DNA from: a virus
DNA length: 20,443 nt
IMG/VR virus record: IMGVR_UViG_3300009503_000625
Span: 1-20,443 of that record
Direction: 5' to 3' (one strand)
Position 1 is the stretch's first letter, and each line of letters starts with the position of its first letter. Shown here piece by piece: positions 9,703 to 15,283 of this stretch. The notes below the pieces were generated by a model. That model had not been told where the DNA came from. It ran no database searches and worked only from the letters and a program-made list of their open reading frames with translations. The translations under genes and the position numbers were made by a program.

Positions 9703-10133
9703 GGATGTCCGTAACTCACGAAAGTCAGCGAAATCACGCTGGTGAAACACTCCCCTTGATCGAGCTGTTCGATGGCGATCGCCGGCTCGATTTCCGTAGC
9801 CGTGCAAACCGCCCTTTGGCCGTCGGGCGTCAGTTCCAATAGCGAAGCCCAGCTAGCCAGATCTTCCACGAGGTCCAGAAAATCCTTCTGGTAGAAGCCG
9901 TTGCCGCTGTTACGCCAGGCCAGTGCCAGATTCAACTTGCAGGTCCGGGATTCGGTGGCGCGTCCGCCTAGCTCGATCTTTACGCTTTCGGGCACGACCC
10001 ATGCGCGGTAGGGCCTCCCGGTGGGCAATTCCTCGAAGCTCGGGCGCGGACGCAACCCGGCCGACACCTCCAGGGTCCCGGAAAACTCCGAGGCGAGCCG
10101 GGCCGCCAAATCCTCCATCAGGGCATAAAGCAT
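9699..10133 (-). CDS. tail terminator-like protein
   Basis: This 144-aa protein has an N-terminal helix (MLYALMEDLAARLASEF) followed by strands and ends with FTSVISLTFVSYG, an ending like tail terminators of the gpU kind, which cap the tube at its head-proximal end. Position between the head-tail adaptor and the gp10-like gene supports this. The start at 10133 is chosen because the ATG overlaps the upstream stop as TGATG; the longer upstream reading is a shadow of the adaptor gene. It could instead be a head-tail connector component. Confidence 0.6.
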   Translation of the reverse strand: MLYALMEDLAARLASEFSGTLEVSAGLRPRPSFEELPTGRPYRAWVVPESVKIELGGRATESRTCKLNLALAWRNSGNGFYQKDFLDLVEDLASWASLLELTPDGQRAVCTATEIEPAIAIEQLDQGECFTSVISLTFVSYGHP

Positions 10134-10498
10134 CACTGCACCTGCTTGGCATGGACCCGCAAGATCGTGCGGTACGGATCGGCCCAGCGCCATTCGGGCT
10201 CGCCGGCCGGGGCAAGCACCTCGTATACCGCTCCGTCGCCCAGCCGGACCCTATCGCCCCGCCGTGGGGTGCTGGGGGAACCGGCCAGAACCAACTCGGC
10301 AGCAGGTATCAAGAAATCGCATTCGGTCCAGCGCATTTGCACGCCGCCGAAGTCGGCCAGTTTCAAAAGGCTGCGACCGCGGCTGGCAAATACCTCGACC
10401 GCGCCCACACCGGGCCGCTCATAAGTCGCCGCGCCGGCGGCATTTTCGCTCAGTTGTTCGGCCAGCCATTGGGCCGCGGCGCTCAGCACGTCGCTCAT
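10133..10498 (-). CDS. head-tail adaptor-like protein
   Basis: This 121-aa protein begins with a helix (MSDVLSAAAQWLAEQLSENA). It is otherwise beta-rich, with TECDFLIPAAELVL, a PRRGDRVRLGDGAVYEVL hairpin and EPEWRWADPYRTILRVHAKQV at the end. The RGD-R-near-D-G-YEV and W-DPYR-LRVH pattern is that of head completion or adaptor proteins of the gpFII/stopper type, which dock below the portal. The start at 10498 overlaps the preceding stop as ATGA. A much longer open frame extends upstream but is antisense-like noise over the peptidase and TM genes, so it was trimmed here. Confidence 0.65.
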   Translation of the reverse strand: MSDVLSAAAQWLAEQLSENAAGAATYERPGVGAVEVFASRGRSLLKLADFGGVQMRWTECDFLIPAAELVLAGSPSTPRRGDRVRLGDGAVYEVLAPAGEPEWRWADPYRTILRVHAKQVQ

Positions 10499-10764
10499 GG
10501 CCCGGACTCCCGAAGCTGTTTCAGGACTTGCTTGCTCTCCACGGCGAAGCTCCGCATGGTTTGTTCCACGCCGCAGAGGACCGTTTGGAATTTCTCGAAG
10601 GCTCTCTCGAAGCGGCCGAAGGCGTCGGCGTTCCTCTGCATGGCCGCCGAGAACTCCCGGGTCAGTTTCAAAAGCTCGCGGATCTGCCAGACCACGATCC
10701 CCAGAAGGACCACGGAGAAGCCGGCGAAACCGTATTGGATGTAGGGGTCCATGAGATCCCGCAT
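10495..10764 (-). CDS. single-TM coiled-coil protein, holin-like
   Basis: This 89-aa protein has one clear hydrophobic helix at about residues 9-27 (IQYGFAGFSVVLLGIVVW). A long charged, heptad-like helix follows (LLKLTREFSAAMQRNADAF and beyond). Size and layout resemble class III holins or spanin-like membrane proteins, but a tethering or signalling role is equally possible. The start is set at 10764, 2 bases after the peptidase stop, giving a short N-terminus before the TM segment; a downstream Met at 10752 is also possible. It overlaps the adaptor gene as ATGA. Its direct linkage to the C1 peptidase suggests they act together. Confidence 0.6.
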   Translation of the reverse strand: MRDLMDPYIQYGFAGFSVVLLGIVVWQIRELLKLTREFSAAMQRNADAFGRFERAFEKFQTVLCGVEQTMRSFAVESKQVLKQLRESGP

Positions 10765-10766
10765 CG

Positions 10767-11546
10767 CTACTCTGCTCCTTCCGGATCCACGACGCCGCGC
10801 ACGGCCCATCCGTCCGTCCAGCGGGTATCGCGGAAGTAACTTTCAGGCACGACGCCGAAGCCGGCCTGGCCCCAATCCGATCCCCAGGAATTGGCCACCT
10901 CGATGCCCCAGGTACTGCCGCGCTTGGCGAGCCCGACGCCGCACATGGCGTGGCCACCGCCACCGCCTCGGCGGTCGGGCACCCAGCCGTCCGAATCGAC
11001 GTTGACGAAATTTGCCCCCACCAGAACGCCGAAGGCCACCAGGAAGCCGAACTGCAAAGCGCTGGCCAGTTGATCAAAGCTGGGGCAGTCCCAAGCTTCT
11101 AGCACCCGGAATTTGGCCGCCTCTTCCTGCCAATTGGCCGGCCAATTTCTGCGATGCCAATCCAATTGTCCCACCGTGCTGGCTTTACAAACGCCCTCTT
11201 TCTCCAGCGCCACGATGGCATCCGACAATAACGACCCGGCATCCATTCCGCCGTTGATTCGGCCGTAAAGGTTGCCCGCTGACAGTTCTACGAAAGGAAG
11301 CCCTACCTCGGCCCTCAACGTTTGCAGGGTTTGGACCGACGCGAACGCGGTGCAGGCTCCTTGCCCGTCCTGGTCCAAAATTTTCGGCACCAGGTGCCGA
11401 TAAGAAACCGGTTTCCACTCGGAGCGGGGCAAGGTGCGGGCACCTACCCGCTCTTCCCACAGTGGCAGCACTTCGCCGGGAGCGTGGATTCTGGGCCTAC
11501 AGCCCAGGATAATCGGCCGATTTTTGAACTCGATTACCGTTACCAT
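10767..11546 (-). CDS. papain-like (C1) cysteine peptidase
   Basis: This 259-aa protein carries the C1 peptidase layout. DQDGQGACTAFASV supplies the oxyanion Gln62 and catalytic Cys65. A papain-type LSAGNLY segment follows at 89-95, with DAGSLLSDAIVALEKEGVC after it. GGGGHAMCGVG gives His199, and VANSWGSDWGQAGF gives Asn219 in the classic NSWG motif. All catalytic residues are therefore present. The N-terminal 55 residues could be a short propeptide; no signal peptide is seen. The ATG at 11546 overlaps the upstream stop (ATGGTAA) and has AGGTG upstream; a GTG at 11558 is the alternative start. Neighbours are a secreted protein and a TM protein, within the virion operon. A role in lysis, virion entry or cleavage of host or virion protein is inferred. 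Confidence 0.85.
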   Translation of the reverse strand: MVTVIEFKNRPIILGCRPRIHAPGEVLPLWEERVGARTLPRSEWKPVSYRHLVPKILDQDGQGACTAFASVQTLQTLRAEVGLPFVELSAGNLYGRINGGMDAGSLLSDAIVALEKEGVCKASTVGQLDWHRRNWPANWQEEAAKFRVLEAWDCPSFDQLASALQFGFLVAFGVLVGANFVNVDSDGWVPDRRGGGGGHAMCGVGLAKRGSTWGIEVANSWGSDWGQAGFGVVPESYFRDTRWTDGWAVRGVVDPEGAE

Positions 11547-12337
11547 GGCAGTGGGCACCTACCGGAGGGGCAATTGGGCACTACGGGCACAAGCCTCGGC
11601 ACTAGAGGCACGAGCCGGCGCGGGGCCGCCTTCGGGAGGATCCCGAACTCGGCCAGAATCGACCGAAACTCGTTGGCCGATTCCGGCACCTTGCGGAAAT
11701 AAGCTTTCGTGCCCCCGTCGTAGATGTAGAGCAGCGGCAGACCTTGTTTCAAGGCCTCGGCCAGCACGGGCTTCAATTCGCTTGGCGTCTGCCCATGCTC
11801 GTCCCGTACGTCCTTGTCGAAGACCCGGAAATTCCAGCCGGCGGCCGCCATCGCCTGCCGGCTGACCCGATCTGTGATGGCTTCCGCTTGCCCAGGCGTC
11901 CGCTCGGCGGTTTCTTCCAGCCACCAGATCGACTTGCCCACGGGGCTCGGCTTGGGCGGCTCAGGCGGTACGGGGCCGGGGGGAGTAGGGGGCACAGGTG
12001 GCACCGGGCCGGGGCCGGGGCCGGCGCCATTACGGCACTCATGGAGGAGGAGCGTTACCCTATCCCCCTCGGCATACCCGTACAGCACGAGGAAGGTCTG
12101 CTCCGTGCGGCTGGCGAATACCACCGCCGTTCCGCCGCCGGGCAGAAGCACCGGGAGTGACTTTTCTTCGGCAGTCTTCGGCCAGAGTCGCCAAAGGCCA
12201 TTTGCTGGAGCGTCCTGCACTTTGAAAACGGCCATGTCGCCGGGCAGCACCGCCTCCGGGCCGACGATCTTCGGTTCACCGGCAAGACCTCCCAGCGGCC
12301 AGAAGGCGACAAGAATCCACAGGGCCCCTTTGCGCAT
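11540..12337 (-). CDS. secreted protein with proline-rich linker
   Basis: This 265-aa protein has a Sec-type signal peptide (basic MRK, then a hydrophobic core to about residue 20, LAG|EP). Residues 22-103 form a beta-rich domain with GPEAVLPGDMAVFKV, resembling the Ig- or PKD-like modules of exported proteins. Residues 105-135 are a Gly/Pro repeat linker. Residues 136-235 look alpha/beta, with LPLLYIYDGGTKAYF like a thioredoxin-fold strand-turn-strand but without a CxxC active site. The tail ends CPSGRCPLPW. The ATG follows the stop of the small helical gene by 3 bases. Such exported multi-domain architecture is common in Planctomycetota. It overlaps the peptidase gene and could be its exported partner or substrate. 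Confidence 0.65.
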   Translation of the reverse strand: MRKGALWILVAFWPLGGLAGEPKIVGPEAVLPGDMAVFKVQDAPANGLWRLWPKTAEEKSLPVLLPGGGTAVVFASRTEQTFLVLYGYAEGDRVTLLLHECRNGAGPGPGPVPPVPPTPPGPVPPEPPKPSPVGKSIWWLEETAERTPGQAEAITDRVSRQAMAAAGWNFRVFDKDVRDEHGQTPSELKPVLAEALKQGLPLLYIYDGGTKAYFRKVPESANEFRSILAEFGILPKAAPRRLVPLVPRLVPVVPNCPSGRCPLPW

Positions 12338-12340
12338 CGC

Positions 12341-12505
12341 CTACTCTCTCTTCTCGATTGCCGGGGGCAGGAGTTGGCCCAGTAGGACCAGCAAATCCCC
12401 GATCTCTCGCATGATGCTCACGAGTTCGCGCAGGGTTATCCTGCCGTCCTCGCTGGCCTTGCGGATTTCGTCGATCACGTCACGGATTTCTTTCACCAGA
12501 TCCAT
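12341..12505 (-). CDS. 54-aa helical protein
   Basis: This is a small gene with good support. ATG at 12505 is preceded by GAGG about 6 bases upstream, and it begins 8 bases after the capsid cement stop and ends 3 bases before the secreted protein's ATG. The product (MDLVKEIRDVIDEIRKASED, then GRITLRELVSIMREIGDLL) is almost wholly helical. An EDGRITLRE turn separates an acidic amphipathic helix from a hydrophobic one (IGDLLVLLGQLLPPAI). This helix-turn-helix with D-G-x-I-T at the turn is common in small phage proteins near lysis genes. The second helix may associate with membrane. Function unknown. Confidence 0.7.
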   Translation of the reverse strand: MDLVKEIRDVIDEIRKASEDGRITLRELVSIMREIGDLLVLLGQLLPPAIEKRE

Positions 12506-12513
12506 GGCTCACC

Positions 12514-12840
12514 TCACTGTTCCAGCCGCACCCGTACCGTCGCATCGGCGGACGCAGCCGCTTTGACCGCCTTGCCCATGTACTTGGTGCCGGTTGCGCT
12601 GGTAGTCGCGTACTTGTTGGTGTCGTCCCAGTAGACCTTGGTCCCAGCGCTGATGGCGCCGGTGGTCTTCACTACATCGAAGACGCCTGTCACCGCGATC
12701 GCGCCGAGCTTGTTGGCCTCGATAGCCTGGACGGCCACACCAACCAGGTCGCCTTGAACGACCACCTGCCCCGCCGCGACGGCGGACGAAGGCGTGTAGT
12801 CCACTTTGTCGCCTTCCTGAACGAAGGTTGCTTCAGCCAT
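12514..12840 (-). CDS. capsid cement/decoration protein (DUF2190-like)
   Basis: This 108-aa protein matches the DUF2190 pattern. MAEATFVQEGDKVDYTPSSA is followed by AAGQVVVQGDLVGVAV, then AIAVTGVFDVVK and AGTKVYWDDTNKYATTS, ending VRVRLEQ. These proteins bind the outer capsid surface at the symmetry axes and brace the expanded shell. It lies just after the major capsid gene, its standard position, and has AGGAG about 9 bases before the ATG. Confidence 0.85.
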   Translation of the reverse strand: MAEATFVQEGDKVDYTPSSAVAAGQVVVQGDLVGVAVQAIEANKLGAIAVTGVFDVVKTTGAISAGTKVYWDDTNKYATTSATGTKYMGKAVKAAASADATVRVRLEQ

Positions 12841-15016: not shown

Positions 15017-15197
15017 TTCCAGAAGCCGATCGAGAACGATTCGCTCGATCTCGGCCTAGGTCACGCCAATCGCCCGCAAAAAGACTTGCAGGTCCAGCCG
15101 GCCGCTGGCGTAGTTGTAGCCCGAGAAATTGCCCATCACGATTCCCGGCGGCATCCCCAAGGCCCGCCCGATTTCCTGGAGGAATTGCCGGACGAAG
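15014..15197. repeat. portal gene fragment, duplicated copy
   Basis: These 184 bp match 15597-15780 inside the intact portal gene with about six mismatches by eye. They encode the counterpart of portal residues about 310-371. One mismatch turns a Gln codon into TAG. The fragment is joined directly to the portal's last codons at an agct/gagc boundary, so about 90 portal codons are missing from this copy. Confidence 0.85.
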
Positions 15198-15283
15198 AAT
15201 TCTTTGTTCATTAGTTCATCTCCCATGCACCTGGCGATGAACTCGTTCCTCTTTTCATCGGGATGAGGTTCAGGCAGTGGCAT
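15056..15283 (-). CDS. chimeric ORF: protease N-terminus joined to portal fragment
   Basis: This 75-aa ORF starts with the N-terminus of a protease-capsid gene allele (MPLPEPHPDEKRNEFIARCM, then GDELMNKEF). It continues in frame into a portal segment (FVRQFLQEIGRALGMPPG, on to YNYASGRLDLQVFLRAI) and stops at a TAG where the intact portal has a CAG codon. It keeps the natural ribosome site (GGAG) and overlaps the real portal end by 14 bp, as the genuine protease start does. It is most likely a recombination by-product and not a functional protein, though it may be translated. Confidence 0.5.
   Translation of the reverse strand: MPLPEPHPDEKRNEFIARCMGDELMNKEFFVRQFLQEIGRALGMPPGIVMGNFSGYNYASGRLDLQVFLRAIGVT

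Follow-up and report, generated by a model that had tools for sequence, protein, structure and literature searches.

A candidate lysis cassette built around a papain-like peptidase in phages of presumed planctomycete hosts

Known lytic cassettes and the four-gene set

The lytic cassettes of the Bacillus prophages PBSX (XhlA-XhlB-XepA-XlyA) and SPbeta (BhlA-BhlB-BlyA) (PMC6834076) offer a point of comparison for a four-gene set in the virus record IMGVR_UViG_3300009503_000625, of which positions 1 to 20,443 were analyzed (20,443 nucleotides; hereafter, the window). The set occupies 10495-12505 on the minus strand and encodes, in order of transcription, a 54-residue protein (p54), a Sec-exported protein with predicted immunoglobulin (Ig)-like and thioredoxin-like domains, a papain-like C1 cysteine peptidase, and a coiled-coil protein with one transmembrane (TM) segment. 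As in the window, the Bacillus cassettes place small membrane proteins beside a lytic enzyme, and PBSX includes a two-domain accessory protein, XepA, with a linker of ~30 residues (PMC6834076). The enzymes differ, being a peptidoglycan amidase in Bacillus and a C1 peptidase in the window, as do the accessory proteins: XepA consists of two beta-sandwiches, whereas the exported protein is predicted to combine an Ig-like with a thioredoxin-like domain. Xylellain (3ois) has the papain fold and Gln/Cys/His/Asn residues of the window peptidase but is a bacterial enzyme rather than a member of a phage operon. PHROG 16701 holds C1-type phage peptidases like that of the window; the PHROGs database gives neither an exported partner nor a link to lysis. 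The spanins of Gram-negative phages have an exported proline-rich protein in common with this system, in lipoprotein form in two relatives (L037 and L038), but the window protein is no lipoprotein and is large, two-domain, and paired with an enzyme. Our literature search returned no account of planctomycete phage lysis and none naming planctomycete phages or C1 lysins. Lysis cassettes are familiar; one in which a C1 peptidase is the only recognizable enzyme and nearly always comes with an exported Ig/thioredoxin-like partner is undescribed in the literature and databases searched.

The four genes probably constitute a lysis (egress) module. We infer this function, together with the holin role, the release of the peptidase, and its substrate, from intact and linked genes, conserved catalytic residues, a genomic position that varies between phages, the lack of another Pfam-recognizable lytic enzyme in two apparently complete genomes, and predicted folds. 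An earlier note on this DNA had left three options, namely a novel lysis module, a virion-borne entry protease, or a system acting on host surface or defense proteins. The first is now favored by the variable position, the lack of another recognizable lytic enzyme, and the arrangement in Thermoanaerobacterium phage THSA-485A; the other two are disfavored.

A conserved gene unit and its proteins

Relatives were sought with the peptidase and with the exported protein and were found in IMG/VR and in genomes of the Thermogutta family (Planctomycetota). The combined set comprises 71 C1 loci in 49 clusters at 90%, which we treat as independent peptidase lineages. An exported or thioredoxin-like gene lies directly upstream of C1 in 47 of the 49 clusters, mostly with a spacer of -4 to +11 nucleotides. 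Of the remaining two, one contig is truncated upstream of C1, and in the other (L052) the peptidase has its own signal peptide. This count is not circular because the peptidase searches made no selection for the partner. Three loci that came only from the search with the exported protein (L043-L045) likewise have an adjoining C1 gene, and the same contigs were later recovered independently through C1. The protein distances of the two partners mirror each other (r = 0.89; 0 of 2000 permutations), a correlation to which shared phylogeny contributes. The full set was present in 17/17 close relatives: the upstream gene encodes p54 in 14 and a ~150-residue protein with a hydrophobic C-terminal helix (p150) in 3, and the exported protein and C1 are followed in all 17 by a small TM coiled-coil protein, which in G013 and L032 (L095) was read inside longer open reading frames (ORFs). 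The four genes form a real unit, within which the exported/C1 pair is almost obligate.

In the window, p54 (12341..12505) is separated by 3 nucleotides from the exported gene (11540..12337; 265 residues), which overlaps the C1 gene (10767..11546); 2 nucleotides further lies the TM gene (10495..10764), which has an ATGA-type overlap with the head-tail joining gene. The spacing is operon-like. The closest relative, L002, has an identical gene order and 80-91% protein identity. Against it, the ratio of nonsynonymous to synonymous substitution rates (dN/dS) is 0.18 for p54, 0.10 for the exported protein, 0.06 for C1, and 0.09 for the TM protein; given this purifying selection, none of the four ORFs is spurious.

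The peptidase matches PF00112 at 28.3 bits, above the curated cut-off of 20.7 (E 2e-6). Its start is either GTG at 11558 (263 residues) or, probably, judging from the comparison with L002, ATG at 11546 (259 residues). In GTG numbering the catalytic set is Q63/C69/H203/N223, with the codons of Cys69 at 11352..11354 and His203 at 10950..10952 (both minus strand). Across the 71 loci, the alignment has the cysteine in 70/70, the histidine in 69/69, the glutamine in 69/70, and the asparagine in 65/68. The structural model has a papain fold, with a predicted local distance difference test score (pLDDT) of 92.5 and a predicted template modeling score of 0.91; its best PDB match by Foldseek is xylellain 3ois (TM-score 0.71, 23% identity), and the Foldseek matches listed are C1A peptidases. 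By domain, residues, and modeled fold the protein is a C1A family member, with proteolysis as its predicted activity. A signal peptide is absent. PHROG 16701 ("peptidase", category other) matches the window protein at 4e-7 and the L117 homologue at 8e-14. A tblastn search with the window peptidase against 50,697 phage records matched 1 record; queries with more diverged family members matched the same record and two THSA-485A entries. One locus, L132 (2726-4630), has a 634-residue ORF holding the C1 domain, ~360 residues above the usual length.

The exported protein consists of a Sec signal (residues ~1-20), an Ig-like domain (23-103), a flexible proline-rich linker (~104-133), and a thioredoxin-like domain (134-232; 11642..11938, minus strand). 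It has no Pfam or PHROG match. Its AlphaFold model exceeds a pLDDT of 90 in both domains, for which Foldseek returned Ig-like and thioredoxin matches with weak E-values; the C-terminal domain is modeled in the order beta-alpha-beta-alpha-beta-beta-alpha, with weak thioredoxin matches in BFVD (E ~1e-3). As modeled, the protein joins an Ig-like to a thioredoxin-like domain. CxxC was found in neither the window's thioredoxin-like domain nor the family alignment, and because this motif is missing, the domain would not be a classical disulfide reductase. The protein ends in CPSGRCP, an instance of a conserved C-terminal CPxGxCP motif; the cysteines of its C-x4-C element (CPSGRC, 11555..11572, minus strand), C256 and C261, are invariant in seven sequences, and most relatives conserve the element. 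Compared with chagasin-like (I42) inhibitors of C1 peptidases, the N-terminal domain has an Ig-like fold in the model, but the best 50 Foldseek matches include no I42 member, and the NPTTG/GxGG/RPW loops were unseen by eye. The window signal peptide has no lipobox. In L037 (8933-9952) and L038 (8940-9962), on contigs of 135-144 kb, the homologues have lipoboxes (LSIVGC and IPILGC, respectively) and a very long Pro-Glu-Pro-Lys linker.

Two small proteins complete the unit. p54 contains a turn, DGRITLRE, that resembles an EF hand, and its C-terminal helix is hydrophobic; a match to CII/Phage_CP76 was weak, limited to a helical stretch, and not used to assign function. In L008 (6615-7091) and L031 (4866-5327), a p54 homologue lies in frame behind a helix-turn-helix and zinc-ribbon ORF, as a fusion or with an internal start. 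The window TM protein has an N-terminal TM segment followed by a coiled-coil-like region and is holin-like (BhlA/UviB-like) by architecture only. Its gene likely starts at 10764 (89 residues); a start at 10809 (104 residues) has no support from relatives. Most close relatives have at this place a gene whose product shows the reverse order, coiled coil and then a C-terminal TM segment. Both orders would fit the small membrane proteins of lytic cassettes, again by architecture only.

The earlier note described these genes well. Its four coupled genes at 10495-12505 are intact and nearly contiguous on the minus strand between a cement and a head-tail joining gene, and the 54-residue amphipathic helical protein, the Sec-exported protein with a proline-rich linker, the papain-like peptidase with intact Gln/Cys/His/Asn, and the one-TM coiled-coil protein (start revised) were all recovered; C1 peptidases are indeed rare among phages. 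The joint cassette that it proposed is borne out by the 47/49 and 17/17 counts, which run opposite to the rare linkage it named as an argument against a joint function. The other such argument, a lone host-derived peptidase, also fails: the Planctomycetota hits examined lie in phage-like contexts, and the C1 matches examined in Thermogutta-family genomes have as neighbors either genes of phage type or the exported partner's gene.

Genomic position, lytic enzymes, and rival readings

Along the minus strand, the window reads large terminase (PF20454), portal (PF05136), a 705-residue capsid protein, cement (12514..12840; PF09956, 4e-28), the four-gene set, head-tail joining (10133..10498; PF25138, 6e-29), and tail genes. 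In the window and L002, the cement and head-tail joining genes flank the set. In L004 it instead follows the head-tail joining gene; L006, L034, and L049 have it behind the capsid gene, and in L005, L008, L027, L029, L031, L032, and L036 it precedes the terminase genes. A compact set kept together (17/17 relatives) while its location varies (at least three positions) is what characterizes lysis cassettes, and by this analogy the set behaves as a lysis module rather than as a structural gene. The same distribution bears on a virion-borne protease, packaged and acting in head maturation or entry. In the window, L004, L006, and L034, the surrounding head and tail genes would suit such a role, but the module stands outside the head-to-tail cluster where it precedes the terminase genes, its partner carries a signal peptide, and the long N-terminal region of the capsid protein, whose PF25209 match is confined to the C-terminal part, by inspection already resembles a prohead protease. 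We regard packaging as quite improbable.

Three features elsewhere in the window were recorded on the minus strand. Between the portal and capsid genes, a 75-residue mosaic ORF (15056-15283) begins with 29 residues like the start of the capsid protein and continues like a portal segment; it looks like the remnant of a partial tandem duplication. Beyond the tail genes lie a protein that resembles phosphoribosyltransferases and apparently has a HAD-like region (1081-2328) and a P-loop sulfotransferase-like protein (PRTGGTSI; 473-1228), the latter without Pfam support.

Two related genomes, G126 (36.2 kb) and G131 (34.5 kb), were taken as complete because of exact 127-bp end overlaps. Pfam scans of their six-frame ORFs of at least about 80-95 residues, with shorter ORFs outside the scan, retrieved portal, terminase, capsid, recombination, and other families but no peptidoglycan hydrolase, leaving Peptidase_C1 as the only lytic candidate. 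Family searches of 13-14 related records found no Amidase_2, SLT, or phage lysozyme. Statements of absence refer to these six-frame scans and family searches and mean absence from known families, not proof; in G127, a greedy gene call missed C1 behind an antisense ORF.

Several observations weigh against assigning the set to lysis. The C1A peptidases are not known as a family of peptidoglycan hydrolases. Ten TM proteins were scanned without a match to any Pfam holin family, XhlA and BhlA included, and the thioredoxin-like domain of the exported protein, whose part in lysis is putative, lacks CxxC. Two relatives of 135-144 kb have a sub-threshold M23 match, and an unrecognized endolysin may exist, as planctomycetes have peptidoglycan (PMC5147048). 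A module-less control prophage, G019:C498, showed no canonical endolysin among the 25 of 44 Pfam families listed, an absence to which its apparent truncation may contribute. This prophage (L150), which has a window-type head module, adjoins BREX genes (BrxA, BrxB).

Variant arrangements inform what the peptidase may act upon. In L052, the C1 domain (PF00112, 8e-16) belongs to a 432-residue protein with an N-terminal signal peptide and a C-terminal CPDGHC, and because it has its own signal peptide, this peptidase would act outside the cytoplasm. A thioredoxin-like assignment of its N-terminal domain was weak (11.7 bits by hidden Markov model [HMM]; hhalign probability 1.2%), and only the fusion of signal peptide and C1 is claimed. 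In L084 and L085, which have a window-type head module without this C1 family, the place behind the head-tail joining gene is taken by an exported protein with a homologous Ig-like N-domain and then a peptidase-like ORF. For L085, homology of this N-domain to that of the window scores 46.7 bits, and the frame continues into the peptidase-like region; this may indicate a fusion, although the region has no Pfam match and an internal ATG exists. The peptidase-like gene of L084 (4345-6357) appears to be split by a HINT/HNH insert (PF13392, 1.8e-6; PT-HINT sub-threshold) that may be an intein. L088 (7973-9607) and L089 (7185-9383), two prophages whose head module is related, have at this place a trypsin-like protease that is exported, contains a thioredoxin-like stretch with CxxC, and has a TM segment at its C terminus. 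The peptidase nature of the L084/L085 genes and the thioredoxin nature of the L088/L089 stretch are motif readings without Pfam support.

The L088/L089 protease, the lipobox in L037/L038, and the exported Ig-like domain with its proline-rich linker are the observations expected if the module acted during infection on host surface or defense proteins, as in superinfection exclusion, envelope remodeling, or immunity. This account fits poorly with a pair kept near-universally in unrelated backbones, a holin-like TM protein, and C1 members that mostly have no signal peptide; moreover, the apparently complete genomes without another recognizable lysis gene argue for an essential role in egress. A surface or defense function accordingly seems improbable to us.

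THSA-485A (L148, 4960-6714) provides a comparison within a recognizable lysis region. Its C1A peptidase, Tsac_2838, directly follows a GH25 endolysin, Tsac_2839, and the endolysin and peptidase end in similar ~35-residue tails (YTIVFDDQNQANLVAQVLGGKVRQI / YEIYFDDINKAKNVANLFKGNIKI), perhaps a wall-binding module; XhlA-like and holin-like ORFs lie just upstream of the pair. Like the window peptidase, Tsac_2838 is signal-less and near small TM proteins, and our family HMM detects it at 43.8 bits. Unlike the window peptidase, it adjoins a canonical endolysin with which it has a tail in common, and no exported Ig/thioredoxin-like partner gene was seen.

Within a lysis module, the peptidase could itself work as a genuine endolysin, with the stem peptides or cross-links of peptidoglycan as its target. 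NlpC/P60 and CHAP endolysins have a distant papain-like fold. In the two apparently complete genomes, where no other endolysin is recognizable, the peptidase also takes that place, and peptidoglycan is present in planctomycetes (PMC5147048). However, the model and Foldseek point to classical C1A enzymes (xylellain, cathepsins) rather than CHAP or NlpC/P60, and the THSA-485A C1A peptidase accompanies a separate GH25 endolysin, suggesting a different substrate. We consider a peptidoglycan-cutting enzyme unlikely, while giving it real weight.

Proposed mechanism and probable planctomycete hosts

The host-linked relatives of the module belong to Thermogutta, and relatives of the capsid gene occur in 58/119 genomes of the Thermogutta family; the peptidase and capsid relatives together point to a planctomycete host for the window. 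Older work described the planctomycete wall as a sacculus of disulfide-bonded protein (PMC2754498).

In the lysis module that we favor, the four genes would presumably be expressed late, alongside the surrounding structural genes. In the cytoplasmic membrane, the coiled-coil protein with its single TM segment, possibly together with the amphipathic p54, would be the holin or a partner of one and would let the signal-less peptidase leave the cytoplasm. The exported Ig/thioredoxin-like protein, already beyond the membrane, may position, activate, or assist the peptidase, which would then break the load-bearing envelope. An envelope protein would be the preferred substrate because of the cathepsin-like fold and the reported disulfide-bonded protein sacculus; the stem peptides of peptidoglycan, or its peptide cross-links, are a further candidate because planctomycetes have peptidoglycan (PMC5147048). 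Some distant members (L044, L130, L133, L135) encode, within the gene cluster, an additional thioredoxin-like protein that does carry CxxC, an arrangement that fits a disulfide-rich target. In L130 (5010-5501), L133 (4681-5163), and L135 (4189-4659), this gene follows shortly after C1, and its product has an N-terminal TM segment, a coiled coil, and a terminal CxPC-type thioredoxin/glutaredoxin-like domain (GCGPC / GCEPC).

More generally, and tentatively, phages of planctomycetes, and perhaps of other bacteria with protein-rich, disulfide-bonded envelopes, might lyse their hosts by means of a protease of the papain type, aided by an exported partner with a thioredoxin fold, instead of a peptidoglycan hydrolase. 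Only a protein substrate would bring the system close to a new category of lysis. The analysis gives PHROG 16701, and a family of uncharacterized exported phage proteins, a testable function. If the proposal is true, it would add a new enzyme class to phage lysis, supply a marker for recognizing such phages in metagenomes, and offer a handle on how planctomycete phages lyse their hosts and on the long-disputed nature of the planctomycete envelope.

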